Shown piece after piece: positions 48,849 through 59,799 of a stretch of 64,000 nt of DNA. Where the stretch lies: assembly GCF_900113445.1 (NCBI RefSeq), contig NZ_FOPJ01000015.1, forward strand, positions 1 to 64,000. The letters run 5' to 3'. Made by a program: the position numbers and the translations under genes. The notes beneath the pieces were generated by a model. That model saw nothing but the letters and a program-made list of their open reading frames with translations, made no database searches and was not told the DNA's origin. Source of the stretch: Corynebacterium spheniscorum. GTDB taxonomy: Bacteria; Actinomycetota; Actinomycetes; Mycobacteriales; Mycobacteriaceae. Within the stretch, counting starts at the first letter, position 1. Every line of letters starts with the position of its first letter.

Positions 48849-48915
48849 TCGTGCTATGTTTGCCCAGAAAACAATTAAGGTGAGTACAACTGCTCGCCAC
48901 GACCTGAGGAGCGCA

Positions 48916-50763
48916 ATGGATATCACCGCCGCGATGGGCCGATTCTTCAATGAGAAAGGCGAGATCACACTCGCCCCACAGCTGACCTTGGCTGGACTAT
49001 CGGAGCTCATGTACCAGGGTGACTTAGCCAGCGGCGGCGGTGAGCGTGTCGCCCTGAAGGCTTGGGATTTCTCCACTTCCAAAGAAGGGGTGATGAAAAG
49101 CATCACCCGCACCGAAGTTAACCAGCGCATCAAAGCCGTTGCTGCGCGACTCCAACAAGTCGCCAAAATCGGCGATCGCGTAGCCATCCTGGCCGGTAAC
49201 TCCCCGGAATACCTCTATGGCTTCATGGGTGCGCTGTACGCCGGCCTGGTACCGGTACCGCTTTATGACCCACAAGAGCCCGGCCACGCAGAACACCTCA
49301 ATGCGGTGCTCGCCGATTGCGGCCCCACCGTGGTGCTCACCACCTCAGCTTCCGCACCCGCTGTGCGTGCTTATTTCAAGGAACGCCCCGGCCGCCAGCG
49401 TCCCCGCATCATCGCCCTCGATGCACTCCCGGATACCCTGGCCGCCAGCTGGGTTAATCCCATGGCCACCCCGGAAGGGCAGATGCTCATGGCATCTTCC
49501 CAAACCATGCCGATCGATCAGCTCGCCTTCCTGCAGTACACCTCAGGTTCCACCCGCACCCCAGCCGGTGTGGTGCTCACCAACCGCTCCATTTTGACCA
49601 ATGTGCTGCAAATTTTTGCCGCCGCGAAGCTGAAGACGCCCCTGCGCTTCGTCTCCTGGCTGCCGCTGCACCACGATATGGGCATCATCCTCGCCGCCTT
49701 CTGCCTCATCCTCGGCCTGGAACTGCAGATGATGACCCCGCGTGACTTCATCCAACAGCCCCGCCGCTGGACCCGCCAGCTGCACCGCTGCGATGACAAC
49801 TTCATCTACACCGTCATCCCCAACTTCGCCATGGAATTGGCCGTCCGTTACGGCCTGCCAGAAGAAGGCGAAGAACTCGACCTCTCCGGCCTGGCCGGTG
49901 TGATCATCGGATCCGAACCTGTAACCGAGAAGGCTGTCACCAACTTCATCGACACCTTCAAGGAATATGGGCTCCCGAATTCGGTCGTGCGCCCCTCCTA
50001 TGGTCTGGCAGAAGCCTCCCTGCTGCTCACCACCCCCCAAACCGAGGAACGCCCGCTGGTTTCGCACTTCGACCGCGAGAAGCTCGCCGAAGGCGAAGCG
50101 GTGATGGTTGACCCCAGCGATGAGAAGGCTGTGGCCTTCACCTCCAATGGCCAGGTTGTGCGCCCGCAATTCCTCACCATCGTTGATCCCGAAACCCGCC
50201 AAGAAATCGAAGACGGCAAGGTTGGCGAAATCTGGGCACAGGGCGAGAACATGGCTGTCGGTTACCTGGACCGCCCCGAAGACACCCAAGAAACCTTCCA
50301 CAACACCCTGGCTGGCCGCTTAGAAAATAGCAGGGTAGAAGGCTCCGAGGATTCCCCGTGGATGGCCACCGGTGATCTCGGCACCATCATCAATAACCAG
50401 ATCTACATCACCGGTCGCCTCAAAGACCTCATCGTCATTGCTGGTCGTAACCACTACCCGCAAGACATTGAGTACACCGTGGAAAAGGCCAGCGACCATA
50501 TCCGCCCAGCCTGCGTTGCCGCCTTCTCCATCGACGGCGATGATGTAGAAAAGCTCATCATCCTGGCAGAACGCGACCTGGACCGCCAGGCCAGCGATGA
50601 TGCCGAAGCTATCGAGAAGATTCGCTCCGCAGTCAGCGCCTCCCACGGTGTGGTTCCCGCGGATGTTCAGATCCTCGCCCCCGATGAGATTGCTCGTAGC
50701 TCTAGCGCAAAGATTGCGCGCCGGGTCTGCCGCAAGCAGTATCTTGCCGATCTCGAAGGCTAA
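48916..50763 (+). CDS. fadD32: Long-chain fatty acyl-AMP ligase FadD32
   Basis: 615 residues from ATG 48916, with CTGAGGAGCG just upstream. It activates the long meromycolic fatty acid as acyl-AMP and loads it on the N-terminal carrier domain of Pks13. The AMP-binding motif LQYTSGSTRTPAGVVLTN is at about 207-224. SWLPLHHDMGIILAAF, SYGLAEASLLLT, MATGDLGTIINNQIYITGRLKDLI and NHYPQDIEYTVEKA are FAAL/FadD32 hallmarks. It precedes pks13 by 356 bp, with a hairpin between, so the two may be separately promoted. Confidence 0.95.
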   Translation: MDITAAMGRFFNEKGEITLAPQLTLAGLSELMYQGDLASGGGERVALKAWDFSTSKEGVMKSITRTEVNQRIKAVAARLQQVAKIGDRVAILAGNSPEYLYGFMGALYAGLVPVPLYDPQEPGHAEHLNAVLADCGPTVVLTTSASAPAVRAYFKERPGRQRPRIIALDALPDTLAASWVNPMATPEGQMLMASSQTMPIDQLAFLQYTSGSTRTPAGVVLTNRSILTNVLQIFAAAKLKTPLRFVSWLPLHHDMGIILAAFCLILGLELQMMTPRDFIQQPRRWTRQLHRCDDNFIYTVIPNFAMELAVRYGLPEEGEELDLSGLAGVIIGSEPVTEKAVTNFIDTFKEYGLPNSVVRPSYGLAEASLLLTTPQTEERPLVSHFDREKLAEGEAVMVDPSDEKAVAFTSNGQVVRPQFLTIVDPETRQEIEDGKVGEIWAQGENMAVGYLDRPEDTQETFHNTLAGRLENSRVEGSEDSPWMATGDLGTIINNQIYITGRLKDLIVIAGRNHYPQDIEYTVEKASDHIRPACVAAFSIDGDDVEKLIILAERDLDRQASDDAEAIEKIRSAVSASHGVVPADVQILAPDEIARSSSAKIARRVCRKQYLADLEG

Positions 50764-51119
50764 GTTTTAGGTCACCGCCCTCTTCCCCCTAAGGCTATTT
50801 TGCTTGGGGAGGAGGGCGCTGCCTATGGTGAGCATTCCGCGCTGAGCGGACGTTGGCACTTAAGTACCAGGAATATTTGGTGTCATCTGGTGTGCGAAGA
50901 AACGTTTCTCATGTGGGAACATATATACCTGTGAGGTGTTCTGTGCCTAAGGTGCCCAGTGCCCGAAGCGTCCACCGCCGAAGGCATCACAGCACGCGCA
51001 CACCCCCAGCGCGGGCACAGTAACTCCATATTGGTAGCTGCACCAAGCACACCCTGCTTTTCCGGCAGCTACTGCGCTCCACATAATGACCATTGATTTT
51101 CAACGAGGTAAGAGGCAGC
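50764..51119. other. fadD32-pks13 intergenic region
   Basis: 356 bp with no gene seen. It begins with a 13-bp hairpin and must contain a pks13 promoter if the hairpin terminates transcription. TTGGTG and a TATATACC-like stretch near 50925 might be promoter parts. A weak site AAGAGG lies 4 bases before the pks13 ATG. Confidence 0.45.
50776..50818 (+). terminator. Hairpin after fadD32
   Basis: CGCCCTCTTCCCC pairs with GGGGAGGAGGGCG (13 bp, one G-U) around a 17-base loop, starting 12 bases after the stop. It has no T run, so termination may be partial. Confidence 0.55.
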
Positions 51120-54100
51120 ATGACCGACACCCAGGCGGCATCCATGACGGTTGAGCAGCTGCGCACGTGGCTCCACGACTGGGTAGCTCGCACCGCGGGA
51201 TTAGAGTCCTCGGAAGTTGGTGATGATCGGCCCTTAGAAAGCTTCGGCCTCTCCTCCCGAGACATGGTGCTGCTCTCCGGTGAGCTAGAAAACCTCCTTG
51301 GCGTGCATCTCGATGCCACCATCGCCTATGAGTACCCCACCATCGATGGCCTGGCCCAAAAACTCATCGAAAACGCCCAAACCGGAGCCCAAACCGGAGC
51401 CCAAGCCGGAGCCCAAGCCGGAGCCCAAACCGGAGCCAACGCCCACAGCTCCAGCCCCCACACGCCGCAGCAACGCACCCGCGCGGAGCACGATATCGCC
51501 ATCGTCGGCATGGCAGCCCGCTTCCCGGGCGCCGATAACCTCGAAGAAATGTGGTCCATGCTGGTGGAAGGCCGCGACGCCGTTGGCCCCCTACCGGCCG
51601 GGCGGTGGAGCGAATACGCCGATGACCAAGTCATGGTCGACAAAATGGCCAACGTCAACACCGACGGCGGCTACCTCCAAGACATCGCCGGTTTCGACGC
51701 CGAATTCTTCGGCCTCGCCCCAGTTGAAGCCGCCAATATGGATCCGCAGCAGCGCATCATGTTGGAGCTCAGCTGGAAATCCCTCGAGCATGCCGGCATC
51801 GCCCCCAACACCCTGCGCGGCAAACCCGTAGGCGTGTACTTCGGCTCCACCAATAATGACTACGGGATGCTCATCACCGCCGACCCGGCAGAAGCACACC
51901 CCTACGCACTTACCGGTACCGCCAGCTCAATTATCCCCAACCGCGTCTCCTACGCCTTTGACTTCCGCGGCCCCAGCGTCAGCGTCGATACCGCCTGCTC
52001 CTCCTCGCTGGTTGCCGTGCACCACGCGGTACGCGCCCTTCGCGATGGCGATGCCGACCTCGCCCTAAGCGGCGGCGTTAATATCCTCGCCTCCCCTTTC
52101 ATCTCCACCGCCTTCGGCGAACTCGGGGTCATCAGCCCCACCAGCGCCATCCACGCCTTCAGCGATGAAGCCGATGGCTTTGTCCGTGGCGATGGTGCCG
52201 GCGTGCTGGTCCTCAAGCGCGTTGCCGATGCACTACGCGACGGCGACACCATCCATGCCGTGATCCGCGGTTCCGCGGTGAACTCCGATGGCCACTCCAA
52301 TGGCCTCACCGCACCCAACCCCGAAGCGCAGGTGGATGTCCTTCACCGCGCCTACCGTGATGCCGGCATCCGCCCCCACGAGGTCGACTATGTCGAAGCC
52401 CACGGCACCGGCACCATCCTGGGGGATCCCATTGAGGCCACCGCCCTAGGCGAGGTCCTCGGCAAGGGCCGCGATATCACCGAACCCACCCTGCTCGGCT
52501 CCATTAAAACCAATATTGGGCACACCGAAGCCGCTGCCGGCACCGCCGGGCTCATCAAGGTTGTCCTGGGCCTCCAACACGACATCATCCCGCCCTCTTT
52601 GCACTTCGATGCCCCCAACCGCTTCATCGACTTCGATGCTGAGCGCCTCGAGGTAGTCGAAGATCCCCGCGAATGGCCCCAATACTCCGGCCGCCGCGTC
52701 GCCGGTGTCTCCGGCTTCGGCTTCGGCGGCACCAACGCGCATATCGTGCTCAGCGATTTCAACGCAGCCGATTATGAGGTCCAAGCCACCCAGATCGACG
52801 CCCAGCTGGCGAAAGATAACCTCGTCAGCCTGCCGGTCTCTGGCCTGCTTCCTTCCCGTCGCCGCCAACTCGCCGAAGTTTTGGCCAACGATCTCGAGCA
52901 GCGCCCGGAAGAAGAACTCATCCCCTTCGCCTGCGTGCTAAGCGGCCGGAACCATGGGCGTTCCCGCGCCATCATTCACGCCGATAGCATCGAGCAGGCC
53001 GTCAAACGCCTCCGCCAGGTCGCCGAAGGCAAAGTCTCAGTCGGCATTGATGCCGCGGATTCCCCCGCCTCCCTCGGCCCGGTATTCGTTTACTCCGGCT
53101 TCGGTTCCCAGCACCGCAAGATGGTCAAGGACCTCTGCGAACTCTCCCCGATCTTCCTTCAGCGCCTCGAAGAACTCGATGAGCTGGTGGAGTTCGAATC
53201 GGGCTGGTCCATCCTGGATATCGTCCGCGATGATGAACAAACCTATGACACCGAAACCGCACAGGTCGCCATCACCGCCATCCAAATTGCCCTGACCGAC
53301 CTGCTAGCCCACTTCGGTGCCCGCCCCGCGGCTGTGATGGGGATGTCCATGGGCGAGATCGCCGCCGCTTATGCCGCCGGTGGGCTCAGCGCCGAAGACG
53401 CCCTGCGCGTTGCCTGCCACCGCGCCCGCCTCATGGGTGAGGGCGAAAAGTCCCTGCCCGAAGATGAACTCGGCGCCATGGCCGTCATCGAGATTTCCGC
53501 TGATGACCTCGCTCAGCTGCGCGAGGAACGCCCCGAATATGCCGGCATTGAGCCCGCGGTTTATGCCGGCCCCGGCATGACCACCGTCGGTGGCCCCCGC
53601 GAAGCTGTGGTTGCGCTAGTAGAGGAGTGGGAAAAGGAATCCCGCTTCGCCCGCCTGCTCAACGTTAAGGGTGCGGGCCATACCAGCGCGGTGGACCCAC
53701 TACTGGGTGAACTGGCCGCCGAAACCGGCGATGTGCAGCCCAAACCTTTGCGCATCCCGCTATTTAGCTCCGTGGATTGCGGCATGGTCTACCAGCCCGG
53801 CAGCACCGTCCACGATTCGGATTATTGGATCCGCTGCACCCGCCAGGCCGTGCACTTCCAAGAAGCTACGGAAGCTGCTTTCGCCGCCGGCCACAGCACC
53901 TTGGTGGAGATTTCCCCCAACCCGGTGGCACTCATGGCGATGATGAACACTGCCTTTGCCGTTGGCCGCCCGGACGCGCAGCTGCTCTACGCCCTCAAGC
54001 GCAAGGTTGATACCGCCCACAGCATGCGCGAATTGCTGGGCAAGCTCTATGTGCAGGGCCAAGACATTGACTTCCGTTTCTTCAACGGCGATGCACAAAC

Positions 54101-56036
54101 CCCCATCACCCCCGTCCCCGGTGTGGCCTTCCGCCACCAGTCCTATTGGACGGACGCGCACCCCTCCAGCACCACCCGCGTGGGTCTACCAGGGGTTCGC
54201 ACCATCCTCCCGGATCGCTGCATTGCCTTCCGCACCACCGCTGATCTCGCGCCCAGTGTGCTGGCGGTGCTTGAAACCGCGGCGGAAAATATTGACCCCA
54301 CCGCCAACCTCAGTGCCTACCAGGAATATGGCACGCTCCCGCCATCCGGCGAGCTCACCACCATTGTGCGCCGCGTGCTGGGCGGACTGTCCTTAAGCGT
54401 GCACCACGTCACCGACAATGATGACACCGTGCTCATCGCCGAAGGTTTCGCCACTGCCGGCGACACTCCGCACACCCAGACGCCCGCGGAACTCGGCTAC
54501 ACCGCCCCCACCGAGCGCCCCAGTATGCCCACCGATGAAGTCCAGGTGGAGCAACGCCATTGGGACCCCACCTCCGGGGAATCCGTAGAAGACCGCATGC
54601 GCGCCATCGTCTCGGAATCCATGGGCTATGACGTCGACGATCTCCCCCGCGAGCTCCCACTGATCGACCTCGGCCTCGATTCACTGATGGGCATGCGCAT
54701 CAAAAACCGCATCGAAAACGACTTCCAAATCCCGCCGCTGCAGATCCAGGCACTGCGCGACGCCTCCGTCGCCGATGTTGTCAGCATGGTCGAAGATATG
54801 GTCGCTCAAGAATCTTCTGCTATCCCCGAGAACGATTCCCCCAACTCCGCAGCTCCCGCAGCTGCGCAGGCGGCCCCCGCGGACGCTGCGGCTTCCCCGC
54901 AACGCGAATCCGCGGATAATAAGCCCAGTACCCCAAGCACCGGCGTAGGTGTTGCGCCTCGCGATGCTTCGGAACGCCTCGTCTTTGCCACCTGGGCGGG
55001 TATCACCGGTGCTGCTGCCGCAGGGGTTACCTCGCAGCTTCCCAGCGTGGATGAAGACACCGCCCAAAAGATCGCTGAGCGCCTTAATGAGCGCGCCGGG
55101 GCTTCCTTAAGCGCGGCGGATGTTCTTGCTGCCAGCACGCTGGAACCGCTGGCAGATCAGGTGCGCGAAACCCTCGAAACAGATGTTGAAGGCAATATCC
55201 GGGTATTGCGTGCCCGCGCGGAGGGCAGCACGAAACCCAGTGTCTTCCTCTTCCACCCCGCCGGTGGTTCCTCTGTGGTGTACCAACCACTAATGCGCCG
55301 CCTGCCCGATGATGTGCCGGTTTATGGTGTGGAACGCCTAGAAGGTTCCCTGGCTGAACGTGCCGCCGCCTACCTGCCGGATATTCAGCGGCTTGCTGAT
55401 GGCAAGCCGGTGGTACTCGGTGGTTGGAGCTTCGGTGGTGCCTTGGCTTATGAGGTGGCCCACCAGCTTGAAGAATCTGATGTGGAAGTAGGCCTGATTG
55501 TGCTGCTCGATACCGTGCAGCCCAGCGAAACAGTGCCCGATACCATCGAAGAAACCAAGGCTCGCTGGGAACGCTATGCGGCTTTCGCGGAAAAGACCTA
55601 TGGCCTGGAGTTCCCGGTGCCCTATGAGCTTCTCGAAACCGCTGGTGAAGATGCCCTCTTAGGAATGTTGGTGGACTTCCTCGCTACCACCGACCCAGCC
55701 GAGCATGGCTTAGCCGCCGGGGTGCTGGAGCATCAGCGCGCCAGCTTTGTGGATAACCGCATCTTGGATCGCATGGACCTGCGCCGTTGGGCGGATGTGC
55801 ATGTACCGGTGATGCTCTTCCGTGCGGAGCGTATGCACGATGGTGCCATTGAGTTGGAGCCACGCTATGCCCAGATTGACCCCGATGGTGGCTGGTCCGC
55901 TATCGTTGATCAACTAGACATTATTCAGCTGCACGGTGACCACTTAGCCGTGGTGGATGAACCAGAGATCGCTACGGTTGGTGCACACCTAACTAAGCGC
56001 ATCGAGGAGATGGGCTCCACGGGCCCTCAGAGCTAG
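51120..56036 (+). CDS. pks13: Polyketide synthase Pks13 (mycolate condensation)
   Basis: 1638 residues. It performs the Claisen-type condensation joining the meromycolate and the carboxylated alpha-chain. Domains in order: N-terminal carrier (about 10-85; phosphopantetheine Ser46 in ESFGLSSRDMVLL); an Ala/Gln/Thr/Gly repeat linker (about 88-112); ketosynthase (124-545, Cys in VDTACSSSLVAVH near 290, His in EAHGTGT and NIGHTEAAAG); acyltransferase (about 640-950, Ser in GMSMGEIAAAYAAGG near 743); C-terminal carrier (Ser in LIDLGLDSLMGMR near 1189); thioesterase (about 1370-1638, Ser in LGGWSFGGALAYE near 1437, His in LHGDHLAVV). All active-site residues are kept. Confidence 0.96.
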   Translation: MTDTQAASMTVEQLRTWLHDWVARTAGLESSEVGDDRPLESFGLSSRDMVLLSGELENLLGVHLDATIAYEYPTIDGLAQKLIENAQTGAQTGAQAGAQAGAQTGANAHSSSPHTPQQRTRAEHDIAIVGMAARFPGADNLEEMWSMLVEGRDAVGPLPAGRWSEYADDQVMVDKMANVNTDGGYLQDIAGFDAEFFGLAPVEAANMDPQQRIMLELSWKSLEHAGIAPNTLRGKPVGVYFGSTNNDYGMLITADPAEAHPYALTGTASSIIPNRVSYAFDFRGPSVSVDTACSSSLVAVHHAVRALRDGDADLALSGGVNILASPFISTAFGELGVISPTSAIHAFSDEADGFVRGDGAGVLVLKRVADALRDGDTIHAVIRGSAVNSDGHSNGLTAPNPEAQVDVLHRAYRDAGIRPHEVDYVEAHGTGTILGDPIEATALGEVLGKGRDITEPTLLGSIKTNIGHTEAAAGTAGLIKVVLGLQHDIIPPSLHFDAPNRFIDFDAERLEVVEDPREWPQYSGRRVAGVSGFGFGGTNAHIVLSDFNAADYEVQATQIDAQLAKDNLVSLPVSGLLPSRRRQLAEVLANDLEQRPEEELIPFACVLSGRNHGRSRAIIHADSIEQAVKRLRQVAEGKVSVGIDAADSPASLGPVFVYSGFGSQHRKMVKDLCELSPIFLQRLEELDELVEFESGWSILDIVRDDEQTYDTETAQVAITAIQIALTDLLAHFGARPAAVMGMSMGEIAAAYAAGGLSAEDALRVACHRARLMGEGEKSLPEDELGAMAVIEISADDLAQLREERPEYAGIEPAVYAGPGMTTVGGPREAVVALVEEWEKESRFARLLNVKGAGHTSAVDPLLGELAAETGDVQPKPLRIPLFSSVDCGMVYQPGSTVHDSDYWIRCTRQAVHFQEATEAAFAAGHSTLVEISPNPVALMAMMNTAFAVGRPDAQLLYALKRKVDTAHSMRELLGKLYVQGQDIDFRFFNGDAQTPITPVPGVAFRHQSYWTDAHPSSTTRVGLPGVRTILPDRCIAFRTTADLAPSVLAVLETAAENIDPTANLSAYQEYGTLPPSGELTTIVRRVLGGLSLSVHHVTDNDDTVLIAEGFATAGDTPHTQTPAELGYTAPTERPSMPTDEVQVEQRHWDPTSGESVEDRMRAIVSESMGYDVDDLPRELPLIDLGLDSLMGMRIKNRIENDFQIPPLQIQALRDASVADVVSMVEDMVAQESSAIPENDSPNSAAPAAAQAAPADAAASPQRESADNKPSTPSTGVGVAPRDASERLVFATWAGITGAAAAGVTSQLPSVDEDTAQKIAERLNERAGASLSAADVLAASTLEPLADQVRETLETDVEGNIRVLRARAEGSTKPSVFLFHPAGGSSVVYQPLMRRLPDDVPVYGVERLEGSLAERAAAYLPDIQRLADGKPVVLGGWSFGGALAYEVAHQLEESDVEVGLIVLLDTVQPSETVPDTIEETKARWERYAAFAEKTYGLEFPVPYELLETAGEDALLGMLVDFLATTDPAEHGLAAGVLEHQRASFVDNRILDRMDLRRWADVHVPVMLFRAERMHDGAIELEPRYAQIDPDGGWSAIVDQLDIIQLHGDHLAVVDEPEIATVGAHLTKRIEEMGSTGPQS
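51373..51441 (+). repeat. 12-bp tandem repeat in the Pks13 linker
   Basis: A unit close to GCCCAAACCGGA is repeated about six times and encodes repeats of Ala-Gln-Thr/Ala-Gly in the linker between the first carrier and ketosynthase domains. Because the unit is a multiple of three, copy-number changes would keep the frame. Expect strain-to-strain length differences. Confidence 0.9.
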
Positions 56037-56053
56037 AAATTGGTGATACACAA

Positions 56054-57601
56054 GTGACGCACACGACCGCGGAGAAAATCGCTGACCTGCGGGAACGCCT
56101 GCAGCAAGCGCAGGATCCCGGCAGCGAACGTGCCCGCGCTAAACGCGATGCTGCTGGTAGATCCACTCCGCGTGAACGTATCGCCGAACTCCTTGATGAA
56201 GGCTCCTTCGTAGAGATCGGCGCGCTTGGCCGCACCCCCGGCGATCCGGATGCCCCCTACTCCGATGGTGTGGTGACCGGCTATGGCCGCATTGATGGCC
56301 GCCCGGTGGCTATTTATGCCCACGATAAAACCGTCTATGGCGGATCTGTCGGGGTTACCTTCGGCCGCAAGGTCTGCGAAGTGATGGACATGGCCATCAA
56401 AATTGGTTGCCCCGTTATTGGCATCCAAGATTCCGGTGGTGCCCGCATCCAAGATGCGGTGACCTCCCTGGCCATGTACTCGGAAATTGCGCGCCGCCAA
56501 ATGCCGCTGTCAGGCCGCAGCCCACAGATCTCGGTGATGTTGGGTAAGTGTGCTGGCGGTGCGGTGTATGCACCGGTGACCACCGACTTTGTGATCGCGG
56601 TGGAAGATGAAGCCGAAATGTATGTCACCGGCCCCGCGGTGATCAAAGAGGTCACCGGCGAGGAAATCACCTCCGCGGAATTAGGTGGCGCCCGCGAACA
56701 AGAACTCAATGGCAATATCTCCCTGGTGGTAGCCGATGAGGAAGAAGCCTTCGAGGCAGTGCGGGATCTTCTTGATCACCTACCGCTGACCTGTAATGAT
56801 GCTGCCCCAGTCTTTGGTGCCCCCAGTGATGAAGAAGTGGCGGAAACCCCGGAGCTAGATAGCTTCATGCCGGATGATACCAATGCTGGCTATGACATGG
56901 TGGATTTGCTGCGCCAGCTCGGTGATGATGATTCCCTGCTGGAGATCCAACCCAACTACGCCCCGAACCTCATTACCGCCTTCGGGCGGATTGATGGGCG
57001 CTCGGTGGGGTTTGTGGCGAACCAGCCCATGCACTTTGCTGGGTGTATTGACGCTGATGCTGCGGATAAGGGTGCGCGCTTTATTCGCATTTGCGATGCT
57101 TACAATATTCCGCTGGTGTTTGTGGTGGATACCCCCGGGTATTTGCCGGGTGTGCAACAAGAAAAAGCTGGTCTGATTCACCGCGGCGCGAAGCTGGCGT
57201 TTGCGGTGGTGGAAGCTAGTGTCCCGAAGGTGACGCTGATTGTGCGCAAAGCTTATGGCGGCGCCTATGCGGTGATGGGGTCGAAGAACCTCAGCGGTGA
57301 TATCAACCTGGCGTGGCCCACTGCCCAGATTGCGGTGATGGGTTCTGCTGCGGCAGTGGTGATGATCCAGGGCAAGCAGCTGGCAGCTGCGCCGCCGGAG
57401 CAGCGCGAGTACTTGAAGAAAGTCTTCATGGACTTCTATGACGAGAATATGACTAGCCCTTATGTGGCGGCAGAACGTGGATTCTTGGATGCCATGATTC
57501 AGCCGAAGGACACGCGGCTGGCGCTTCGTCGGGCCTTAAGGCAGATGACGGAGAAGCGCGAGATCGCGGTGGATAAGAAGCACAATATTATCCCCATGTA
57601 A
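56054..57601 (+). CDS. accD3: Acyl-CoA carboxylase beta subunit AccD3
   Basis: 515 residues from GTG 56054. It is the carboxyltransferase subunit that makes the carboxylated long-chain acyl-CoA used by Pks13. The N-terminal carboxyltransferase domain has ARERIAELLDEGSFVE-like residues (STPRERIAELLDEGSFVEIG), GVGVTFG-type tracts and QDSGGARIQDAVTSL. The C-terminal one has GYLPGVQQEKAGLIHRGAKL and the oxyanion tract KAYGGAYAVMGSKNL. The mycobacterial counterpart in this place is AccD4. The biotin-carrying alpha subunit lies elsewhere. It is 17 bases after pks13. Confidence 0.94.
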   Translation: MTHTTAEKIADLRERLQQAQDPGSERARAKRDAAGRSTPRERIAELLDEGSFVEIGALGRTPGDPDAPYSDGVVTGYGRIDGRPVAIYAHDKTVYGGSVGVTFGRKVCEVMDMAIKIGCPVIGIQDSGGARIQDAVTSLAMYSEIARRQMPLSGRSPQISVMLGKCAGGAVYAPVTTDFVIAVEDEAEMYVTGPAVIKEVTGEEITSAELGGAREQELNGNISLVVADEEEAFEAVRDLLDHLPLTCNDAAPVFGAPSDEEVAETPELDSFMPDDTNAGYDMVDLLRQLGDDDSLLEIQPNYAPNLITAFGRIDGRSVGFVANQPMHFAGCIDADAADKGARFIRICDAYNIPLVFVVDTPGYLPGVQQEKAGLIHRGAKLAFAVVEASVPKVTLIVRKAYGGAYAVMGSKNLSGDINLAWPTAQIAVMGSAAAVVMIQGKQLAAAPPEQREYLKKVFMDFYDENMTSPYVAAERGFLDAMIQPKDTRLALRRALRQMTEKREIAVDKKHNIIPM

Positions 57602-57606
57602 TTGTG

Positions 57607-57663
57607 GGGCTGTAACGGCTGGTGTATTAGTGTCGATGTAGCTCAATAGACTAAGTACAGCCC
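57607..57663 (+). promoter_or_regulatory. Inverted repeat flanking the promoter of the 31-residue ORF
   Basis: GGGCTGTA (57607-57614) and TACAGCCC (57656-57663) lie 41 bases apart, right after the accD3 stop and just before the ribosome binding site of the small ORF. TATTAG and TAGACT in between are candidate -10 elements. The pair may be an operator or a large leader hairpin. Confidence 0.45.
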
Positions 57664-57680
57664 TATTAGAAAGGCAGCAC

Positions 57681-57776
57681 ATGCTCAGCGTTACTCTTGA
57701 TCTCCTCGGCGATATGCTCAACTACATCTACATGATCATCAACGCCGTCACCAACGGCCAAGGCATTAAGCTCTAA
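57681..57776 (+). CDS. 31-residue amphipathic peptide, candidate mycomembrane porin
   Basis: A 31-codon ORF with AGAAAGG 7 bases before its ATG and a strong terminator 29 bases after its stop. The peptide starts MLSVTLDLLGDMLNYIY, continues MIINAVTNGQGIKL, and has no signal peptide. Polar residues Asp7, Asp11, Asn14, Asn21 and Asn25 follow a 4-3 spacing, so they line one face of an otherwise hydrophobic helix of about 24 residues. This is the style of corynebacterial PorA and PorH (45 and 57 residues, no signal peptide, O-mycoloylated on Ser). Ser3, Thr5 and Thr24 are possible acylation sites. Homology to a named porin is not shown. Confidence 0.7.
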   Translation: MLSVTLDLLGDMLNYIYMIINAVTNGQGIKL

Positions 57777-57804
57777 ACACCTTTTCCGCTTTAAAGAACA
57801 GGTT

Positions 57805-57839
57805 CGCCCTCGCACCTACTCAGGTACGAGGGCGTTTTT
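57805..57839 (+). terminator. Terminator of the small-peptide gene
   Basis: CGCCCTCGCACCT pairs with AGGTACGAGGGCG (12 of 13 positions) around ACTC, followed by five T residues. It is one of the best terminators in the window. Confidence 0.92.
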
Positions 57840-57910
57840 GTGTGGCATACCCCAGCCACCTGCCAGGGATCAGTAAGGCAGACCCCTAGCCAGCGGGTCT
57901 CGAGGAAAGC

Positions 57911-58282
57911 TTAAGCCTGGCGCTGCAGCACCTTGGTGGCGATGATTCGCCAGCCCAGCAGCAGAACCGCGGAGGTGATGGAGGCGACCATCATGAAGGA
58001 CCAGTGTGGGACGGTGTGATGGCGCAGCGCCCAGATACCGAGGCCCACGATAACGGTGAAGATCCAGACGAAGAGACCGGCGGGGGCGAGGCGGGTGGGC
58101 ACCATTTTGGTGAGGCTCATGATCAGCCAGGCACCGAGAATGCCGAGGAGGAAGGGCCAGTAGGTGGAGAGCCAGCCGCTGAAGTTGAGCGGCATGGTGT
58201 CGGATTGGTGCGCGACGCGGGCGAGCAGGGCGAATAGGGCCATGCAGATGATGTCGATAAGGAAGAATAGGGCGCGGGACAT
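57911..58282 (-). CDS. DUF3054-family membrane protein
   Basis: 123 residues with four predicted membrane helices (about 5-22, 40-60, 68-86, 93-113). MSRALFFLIDIICMALFALLARVAHQ and the following WLSTYWPFLLGILGAWLI fit the actinobacterial DUF3054 pattern. Its function is unknown. It is convergent with the 31-residue ORF and lies after the 52-residue membrane protein, with which it may share a transcript. Confidence 0.82.
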   Translation of the reverse strand: MSRALFFLIDIICMALFALLARVAHQSDTMPLNFSGWLSTYWPFLLGILGAWLIMSLTKMVPTRLAPAGLFVWIFTVIVGLGIWALRHHTVPHWSFMMVASITSAVLLLGWRIIATKVLQRQA

Positions 58283-58700: not shown

Positions 58701-58722
58701 GGTTAATGCTGCAGCATTAACC
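58701..58722. repeat. Perfect 22-bp palindrome over a stop codon
   Basis: GGTTAATGCTG and its reverse complement CAGCATTAACC abut without a spacer, and the leftward YbhN-family stop codon (58717-58719) lies inside. On the minus strand a CCTTTTTGG tract follows, so it may act as the operon terminator; as DNA it is also a strong dyad. Confidence 0.75.
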
Positions 58723-59799
58723 TGCGGTGGGAACCGCACCCTCCCGCGGGTTCCGCGCTTCCCCGTCGGCCGTACCCTCCCGCGCACTCACCCCGCGACG
58801 CAGATAATGCAGCACATAAATCAGCCACCCCACCACGTTGACCAGCACCAAAGTGATCAAGCGATAAGCCACCGCGGTACCTGTTGCATGTACCACCGTC
58901 ATACCGGTAGCCACCAGGGTGGTCACCAGTGCCGCCTCCACGGGGCCTAAACCACCAGGGGTGGCCTGCACACTGCCGGCAATCTTCGTGGTCACGTAGG
59001 TCAGCAGCACGCCCGCAATGGTGGTGTGATCAGGAATGCGATCAATCCCCGGCATCGTGCCGGTAATCGCCCAGGCACACAGCCACAAACTTAAAATATC
59101 GATCCCGCGATTCAGCAGCGAAAAGATCGCGGCCTTCGCGAAACGCCCCGGGGTCAGTTGGATGGCCGCCAAACCATTGACAAACCCACCAATACTTTCG
59201 GCGGCTTTATCAGGGTCTTTGCGGAATAACTTGGCAATTGGGCGCACCAAGGGTCGGCATGCGTGGGCAATCGGGTGCGGATTACGGGAGGCCACATAAA
59301 GCCCAAAAGACACCGCCACCATCACCAATAAAGTGATAATCAGCGACGCCAAACTAATCCGCGCGCCTAAAAACACCACCGCACTAATGCCTAAAAGCAC
59401 CAGCCACATGGTGGAAATCAGGCCAGAGAACACAAAGAACCAGGCGCATAAAGCACGGCTCGCACCCCACCCGCGCTGCACTTTATAGGTCAAAATCGCG
59501 GAAAAGGCCGCGCCCCCGGGCAGCGTTGTTGCCCACGCATTGCTGGCGAAAGTAATCGCATTCGTTTCCCCCGGGCTCACCTTCGAGCCACCTGCAGCCA
59601 TTAGCTGCCGCATTACCTCCGCCATCGCAGCGAGCGATAAAAGCGCTGTGAGCAGGCATAGTGCTAGTGGCAGTGGTTCGGCGTTGCGCAGGTGCGCCAG
59701 CCCGCCGAGCAGCACATCATATTGCTGATAAGACAGCACCCCCACCACAATCAGCACGACGAGGGCAAGCAGCCACCGCCACCAGCGCGATTTCAGCAT
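58717..59799 (-). CDS. YbhN/UPF0104-family membrane protein
   Basis: 360 residues with eight or so membrane helices. The family (lysylphosphatidylglycerol synthase transmembrane-like) is indicated by LPGGAAFSAILTYKVQRGWGASRAL in the first half and TKIAGSVQATPGGLGPVEAALVTTL in the second; PGGLGxxEAAL is the hallmark. It lacks the catalytic LPG synthase domain, so it may be a lipid flippase or transporter part. It starts 3 bases after the MmpL stop, so the two are almost surely translated from one mRNA. It is near mmpL3 in mycobacteria too. Confidence 0.87.
   Translation of the reverse strand: MLKSRWWRWLLALVVLIVVGVLSYQQYDVLLGGLAHLRNAEPLPLALCLLTALLSLAAMAEVMRQLMAAGGSKVSPGETNAITFASNAWATTLPGGAAFSAILTYKVQRGWGASRALCAWFFVFSGLISTMWLVLLGISAVVFLGARISLASLIITLLVMVAVSFGLYVASRNPHPIAHACRPLVRPIAKLFRKDPDKAAESIGGFVNGLAAIQLTPGRFAKAAIFSLLNRGIDILSLWLCAWAITGTMPGIDRIPDHTTIAGVLLTYVTTKIAGSVQATPGGLGPVEAALVTTLVATGMTVVHATGTAVAYRLITLVLVNVVGWLIYVLHYLRRGVSAREGTADGEARNPREGAVPTAG

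Follow-up and report, generated by a model that had tools for sequence, protein, structure and literature searches.

A conserved accD3-linked micropeptide with a sigma-D-type promoter in Corynebacterium, a candidate small mycomembrane peptide

The micropeptide gene and its neighbours

The window, which is the whole 64,000-nucleotide stretch of Corynebacterium spheniscorum DNA that was analysed, carries a fadD2-pks-accD3 mycolate synthesis cluster, and the ORF encoding the micropeptide MLSVTLDLLGDMLNYIYMIINAVTNGQGIKL starts 79 bp past the accD3 stop at the end of this cluster (Table 1). The name accD3 was assigned from position and the literature. The DUF3054 gene downstream is convergent, so that the micropeptide is not a leader of the next gene, and the C. 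glutamicum counterpart of the DUF3054 gene was also found.

Table 1. Coordinates of the features at the micropeptide locus (positions within the window)
Feature	Position	Strand	Details
fadD2/fadD32-type fatty acyl-AMP ligase	48856..50763	+	Pfam AMP-binding
pks (Pks13-type mycolate condensase)	51093..56036	+	Pfam KS/AT/ACP/TE domains
accD3 (pccB), acyl-CoA carboxylase beta subunit, mycolate synthesis	56054..57601	+	Pfam Carboxyl_trans E 9e-152
Sigma-D-type ECF promoter (predicted), GTAACG-N16-CGAT	57612..57637	+	-35 57612-57617, -10 GAT 57635-57637
Shine-Dalgarno AGAAAGG	57668..57674	+	purine-rich site in 121/127 loci
31-aa micropeptide gene (stop included)	57681..57776	+	ATG to TAA
Intrinsic terminator	57805..57839	+	hairpin 57805-57834, T-run 57835-57839 (T5)
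DUF3054 membrane protein, convergent, cg3176 position	57911..58282	-	Pfam DUF3054 E 3.6e-26
LPG_synthase_TM family membrane protein, cg3175 position	58717..59799	-	between DUF3054 gene and MMPL transporter

An earlier sequence-only reading had credited the gene with a Shine-Dalgarno sequence and a terminator of its own, and both were located. Purine-rich sites were counted as AGG, GGA, GAAAG or AAAGA upstream of a start codon assigned by rule (107 ATG, 18 TTG and 2 GTG among 127 loci), and all six loci without such a site contained an earlier in-frame TTG. The 74 nt following the gene (57777-57850) had a folding energy of -26.9 kcal/mol (z -4.0), and equal stability was reached in none of 200 shuffles. 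A simple terminator scan found none, probably because of a mismatch in the stem, and a sigma-70 consensus scan of the forward strand gave no match.

Distribution of the family and linkage to accD3

Among the first 22 Corynebacterium AccD3 loci examined, the window included, the peptide was directly downstream in 13, and it scored above 25 bits in 58 of 80 named AccD3 loci, which were the top-scoring 80 out of 216; these 58 include C. striatum, C. minutissimum, C. aurimucosum, C. tuberculostearicum and C. macginleyi. A profile of the earlier 13 sequences matched 131 of 242 genomes of the genus at E<=0.1, while a 71-sequence profile at E<=0.05 recovered the family in 128 of the 242, with best matches all at or below 1.6e-4. 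One copy per genome was found in these 128 genomes, except for one weak second match. AccD3 was present in 226 of the 242 genomes (E<=1e-200). The micropeptide occurred in none of the 16 genomes without AccD3, a contrast inflated by shared ancestry, and a recognised copy was missing from 98 of the 226 with AccD3. An order-wide search of 298 genomes returned nothing convincing beyond the genus Corynebacterium; four genomes matched, two of them within the genus, and the two out-of-genus matches (E 0.0055 and 0.0083) lay inside long frames and were taken as chance.

The family was absent from the catalogues searched. Five members gave only sub-cut-off matches in Pfam (best PQ-loop, E 0.03), 71 members gave no match above cut-off in NCBIfam, a profile search of the PDB returned no matches and the locus matched no Rfam family. 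A search of open-access literature returned no paper with a listing that describes the peptide.

A total of 130 loci were extracted and three (L157, L159 and L160) were removed as false, leaving 127; L132, in which the frame reads to 69 aa, was also left out of the residue and codon statistics, leaving 126. In 118 of the 127 loci the peptide gene shared the strand of accD3 and began 12-657 bp beyond it, and in the remaining nine it was about 1.3 to 19 kb downstream, again on the strand of accD3. Five of these nine separated loci were examined in full and the gap was filled by other genes; a DUF3054 gene still came after the peptide, at most about 0.6 kb away, in three of them and was not found in the stretch examined for the other two. 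Since the peptide is retained when separated from accD3, its gene is more than a trailing part of the accD3 transcript. The ORF is real, and its occurrence in 128 of 242 genomes of the genus, together with a purine-rich site in 121 of 127 loci, is more than chance.

Several loci carried additional genes. Apparent polysaccharide-synthesis genes, judged by eye, occupied about 14-15 kb between accD3 and the peptide in two genomes (G104 and G134, loci L266 and L268), and the sigma-D motif described below was kept ahead of the peptide despite the insertion. In genome G111 (L269) the two genes were separated by an ORF of 1622 aa whose N-terminus, judged by eye, resembles a signal sequence. A 35-aa ORF, MFELSTSLDELSEMLNSIFAFGGSLQAIFDALFHR, of PorH-like composition was found about 770 bp after accD3 in C. 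uropygiale (L162) and in L247.

Coding selection and helical anatomy

Substitutions in 35 non-overlapping gene pairs fell 102/57/193 by codon position, and pN/pS was 0.29 in frame compared with 1.29 and 1.62 in the two alternative frames. Conservation is therefore at the codon level rather than at the nucleotide level alone, the pattern that the sequence-only reading had associated with an sRNA, and the micropeptide frame is under purifying selection.

The 126 members were 26-39 aa long. In non-redundant members Asp7 and Asp/Glu11 were present in 73 of 73 and Ser3 in 71 of 73, while Asn14 was found in 41 of 73, with mostly Gly or Ser otherwise, and Asn21 in 45 of 72. Across all 126, Ser3 was kept in 123; two members had no Ser or Thr at all and a third lacked Ser3. 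The polar stripe claimed for the window peptide was upheld, as residues 3, 7, 11, 14, 18, 21 and 25 fall inside an 80-degree arc of the helical wheel, and the hydrophobic moment was 1.50 compared with 0.58 for shuffled sequences (P=0.003). The family-mean moment peaked at 100 degrees (1.45 versus 0.50 shuffled, P=1e-4) and the polar face was more conserved than the remaining positions. AlphaFold2, with an alignment of 50 sequences, modelled the window peptide as a single helix over residues 2-25 (mean pLDDT 87.8). The common plan is an N-terminal LS(S) and, directly after it, a helix of about 22 residues that carries a single conserved polar face (D7, D/E11, N14, N21).

Lys and Arg were absent from the first eight residues of all 126 members and from the whole peptide in 67. 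Cys was likewise absent from all 126, the pI was below 5 in 114 and SS occurred among the last eight residues in 59. The absence of a signal peptide was judged by eye.

A sigma-D-type promoter

The predicted promoter in Table 1 ends with its -10 element 43 bp ahead of the peptide start codon. It was the sole strict match (N15-17) on both strands of the window and remained so when the -10 was relaxed to GAT. In the whole genome (2.46 Mb), five strict sites were present, fewer than the 16 of the reversed control; as the genome shows no enrichment of the strict motif, a lone match means little and conservation alone counts.

Conservation was assessed by searching the 150 nt upstream of each peptide for GTAAC[AG]-N15-19-CGAT. 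The motif was found in 67 of the 127 loci, with a spacer of 15-17 in all, and once on the antisense strand, whereas dinucleotide shuffles gave a mean of 0.07 motif-bearing loci and a maximum of one in 30 rounds. A spacing scan returned 3 sites at 15, 25 at 16 and 39 at 17, with nothing between 6 and 14 or between 18 and 26, and a further 6 at 27-31. The motif was absent from all 25 loci in which the peptide lies 36 bp or less from accD3, and was present in 61 of the 93 linked loci with a longer gap and six of the nine separated loci (67 of 102 in these two classes). After removal of similar upstream sequences, 47 of 73 in this promoter class retained it. The -35 starts before the accD3 stop ends in 24 of the 61 linked cases (22 at the ATG-TAA itself), so that those bases are partly fixed in these 24, and there is no overlap in the other 37.

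As a control, 54 accD3-downstream regions were searched with a spacer of 15-18 and [CA]GAT; these came from AccD3-bearing genomes without a credible match to the 13-sequence profile and cover roughly half of those AccD3-positive genomes in which no copy was recognised. Three of the 54 contained the motif, and each was ahead of a micropeptide: two before peptides of the C. glutamicum type described below and one before a main-family member found by the second profile.

The peptide gene accounts for one of the five genome-wide sites; a second precedes an rsdA-like gene, a third is antisense within the porHA region and two are unassigned. The second lies inside an ECF sigma gene (NCBIfam ShbA subfamily) and ahead of a gene whose sole Pfam match was RsdA_SigD_bd, just below cut-off; from these assignments the two are probably sigD-rsdA. 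The porHA-region site (C11:18598-18623 on the reverse strand of genome G000, locus L370) points towards groEL2. The published sigma-D consensus is GTAAC(A/G)...GAT, and rsdA is given there as a sigma-D target (PMC6338062). The C. glutamicum regulon, as reported, includes fadD2, pks, pccB/accD3, porA, porH, ProtX and cmt1 (PMC11175481, PMC5508688). A sense-strand scan for GTAAC-N16-18-CGA found none in 26 porHA regions and 5 ProtX loci, and a relaxed scan of the 250 nt upstream of fadD2, pks and two mycoloyltransferase-like genes in the window also found none, so that sigma-D control of these genes is taken from what is in print for C. glutamicum only. The micropeptide is apparently switched on by the envelope-stress sigma factor sigma-D, as the conserved motif suggests. 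On these comparisons the micropeptides form a real, conserved and uncatalogued family with a sigma-D-type promoter.

A candidate counterpart in C. glutamicum

A different 27-aa ORF, MATIFAVLSGIDFLSVSLSYLQGFLSY, with a Shine-Dalgarno sequence and GTAACG-N16-GAT upstream, was found behind accD3 in C. glutamicum (L246, assigned to this species by a primer match), about 80 bp into the stretch that follows accD3. Similar peptides of 25-27 aa occurred downstream of accD3 in nine genomes of the C. glutamicum clade (L246, L274, L278, L283, L349, L350, L352, L353 and L360), 51-699 bp into the extracted sequence, and GTAAC[AG]-N15/16-GAT was upstream in three of the nine. This spacing is 1-2 bases below the commonest in the main family, to which the sequence is only weakly related (hhalign Prob 8%). 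C. glutamicum appears to have an uncatalogued counterpart of the micropeptide. The 27-aa ORF had no listed cg number and apparently lacks one; its identity with cg3176 was rejected, as the convergent 121-aa ORF of C. glutamicum would fit cg3176 by gene order. In genome G061 (L283) the first peptide was followed by another small ORF, MLSTALLVAFILDFLGLIPPLESFIPAY, which has a Shine-Dalgarno sequence of its own.

Comparison with PorA, PorH and ProtX

For comparison, sets of PorA (21) and PorH (19) were chosen by eye from small ORFs at 30 groEL2 loci. ProtX was taken from the genome that a published primer, together with the six Ser positions and the mass, identifies as C. glutamicum; the ORF beside it we take to be purB. 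Alignment of the micropeptide family by hhalign gave a Prob of 0.3% with PorA and 0.4% with PorH, values of low power at such length, as PorA against PorH itself reached 4%. None of 71 micropeptide members matched the NCBIfam PorA/PorH models, while a PorA control scored 61.7 bits (cut-off 50), and direct membership of PorA/PorH was rejected on both tests. The alignment with ProtX was weak (Prob 15%, E 0.0017 for one pair) and covered 25 columns, with TSVFDII against SSalDi at the N-terminus. In C. glutamicum some 300 kb separate ProtX from accD3, and ProtX matched 5 of the 242 genomes at E<=1e-4.

The sequence-only reading had placed the peptide at a locus distinct from porA/porH, which agrees with the PorH-like (44 aa, pI 4.05) and PorA-like (45 aa) ORFs that sit between groEL2 and ppk2 in the same genome. 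Both were below cut-off in NCBIfam (E 2.7e-4 and 0.12 respectively), and the identity of the PorA-like ORF comes mainly from its position. Three small PorH/PorA-like ORFs, rather than two, followed groEL2 in genome G213 (L306).

Like PorA (NF033925; C. glutamicum PorA, C. jeikeium PorACj and C. urealyticum PorACur), the micropeptide is short, signal-less and helical, with L-S-S ahead of an amphipathic helix; Ser15 of PorA is described as an L-S site preceding its helix (PMC11927696). A sigma-D link is also common to both, for porA through the reported C. glutamicum regulon (PMC11175481) and for the micropeptide through its motif. Unlike PorA, the micropeptide is shorter, lies behind accD3 rather than between groEL2 and ppk2, has no profile match and lacks a conserved LIGL-type tail. 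With PorH (NF033938/NF033937) it shares its acidity, the absence of a signal and, in the members with SS near the C-terminus, a feature often seen in PorH, but it has neither a profile match nor an MDLS start. ProtX (cg2875; 38 aa, pI 4.05, GRAVY 0.97) is also signal-less and is reported in the sigma-D regulon, with a weak hint of similarity at its N-terminus, but is encoded at a different locus. PorH is reported as mycoloylated at Ser56 and ProtX at the penultimate Ser37 (PMC5310785), and no such C-terminal Ser is present in the window peptide. Of the PorA/PorH channel peptide pattern that had been read into the sequence, the short and acidic amphipathic helix with no evident signal holds up; a relation to PorA or PorH was not detected. 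The family does rank among the shortest of this type, at the lengths given above compared with 37 aa for the smallest channel subunit reported in PMC5944148.

Proposed role and alternative explanations

The reading that we lean towards, by a modest measure, is a sigma-D-controlled mycomembrane micropeptide that works like PorA, PorH and ProtX with no detected PorA/PorH homology. This porin-like reading is the best available and goes beyond regulation, conservation and anatomy, and the family probably represents small outer-membrane peptides of a new kind. The peptide would be expressed under sigma-D alongside the mycolate synthesis, protein mycoloyltransferase and small porins that are raised in C. 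glutamicum, would exit the cytoplasm by the route of the signal-less PorA, PorH and ProtX and would settle in the mycomembrane. In most species it may be O-mycoloylated by MytC/Cmt1 on Ser3 and/or a C-terminal Ser, with Ser3 as a plausible acceptor just ahead of the helix in an L-S site, as at PorA Ser15. Mycoloylation cannot be universal, as two members lack Ser and Thr. The peptides may then oligomerise with the acidic/amide stripe inward as a small pore or an accessory PorHA subunit. A more specific and tentative proposal, which we hold to be possible but doubtful, is that the 26-39 aa family, Corynebacterium-wide, not described before and activated directly by sigma-D, is a third mycoloylated helical component for pores or envelope repair beside PorHA and ProtX, and the smallest known channel subunit.

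The position of the gene, which closes the fadD2-pks-accD3 cluster and is separated from the MMPL transporter by two convergent genes, would also suit a plasma-membrane microprotein that tunes a neighbouring mycolate enzyme or transporter (the AccD3/Pks complex, CmpL1/MmpL3 or a mycoloyltransferase) or the sigma-D/RsdA pathway. Feedback of this kind would be sensible under sigma-D control, and there is a reported precedent in the small protein Cgl2215, which binds MytA and raises its activity (PMC10441969). We regard it as unlikely, as the peptide is kept at a distance from accD3 in the nine genomes with separated loci and its polar face is conserved above the rest. By the positive-inside rule, lack of Lys and Arg is unusual for a single-pass protein, and no member has either in its first eight residues. 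A relocated, divergent relative of PorA or ProtX, instead of a new family, would account for the weak N-terminal ProtX alignment and for the LSS motif common to PorA, and the profile test has little power to reject it. It was considered improbable, since the PorA and PorH profiles do not align, a PorH/PorA-like pair occupies the canonical locus in the same genome, and ProtX lies elsewhere in C. glutamicum and has few matches across the genus.

Size, hydrophobicity and possession of its own promoter and terminator would fit a hydrophobic peptide resembling a type I toxin or a holin, or an amphipathic lytic peptide that is secreted, but a single copy syntenic with a biosynthetic gene across 128 genomes, the invariant Asp7 and acidic residue 11, the restriction to AccD3-bearing genomes and an Rfam search that showed no antisense RNA make this very improbable. 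The short unit and strong terminator could likewise be those of a regulatory RNA or a leader peptide in which the ORF is incidental; this was ruled out as a working explanation, and has scarcely any probability left, on codon-level conservation confined to the peptide frame, a convergent neighbour that leaves nothing to attenuate and the lack of an Rfam family.

Significance

The preferred reading of a sigma-D-controlled mycomembrane peptide bears on the construction and repair of the corynebacterial mycomembrane and on how signal-less peptides reach it. An AccD3-restricted peptide with a sigma-D-type promoter would be an output so far missing from the envelope-stress response, and the family would tend to escape tryptic proteomics, as 67 of the 126 members have no Lys or Arg. 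The apparent counterpart in C. glutamicum makes the question testable in a laboratory strain. If mycoloylated, these peptides would be among the smallest acceptors and may be useful for defining MytC recognition.
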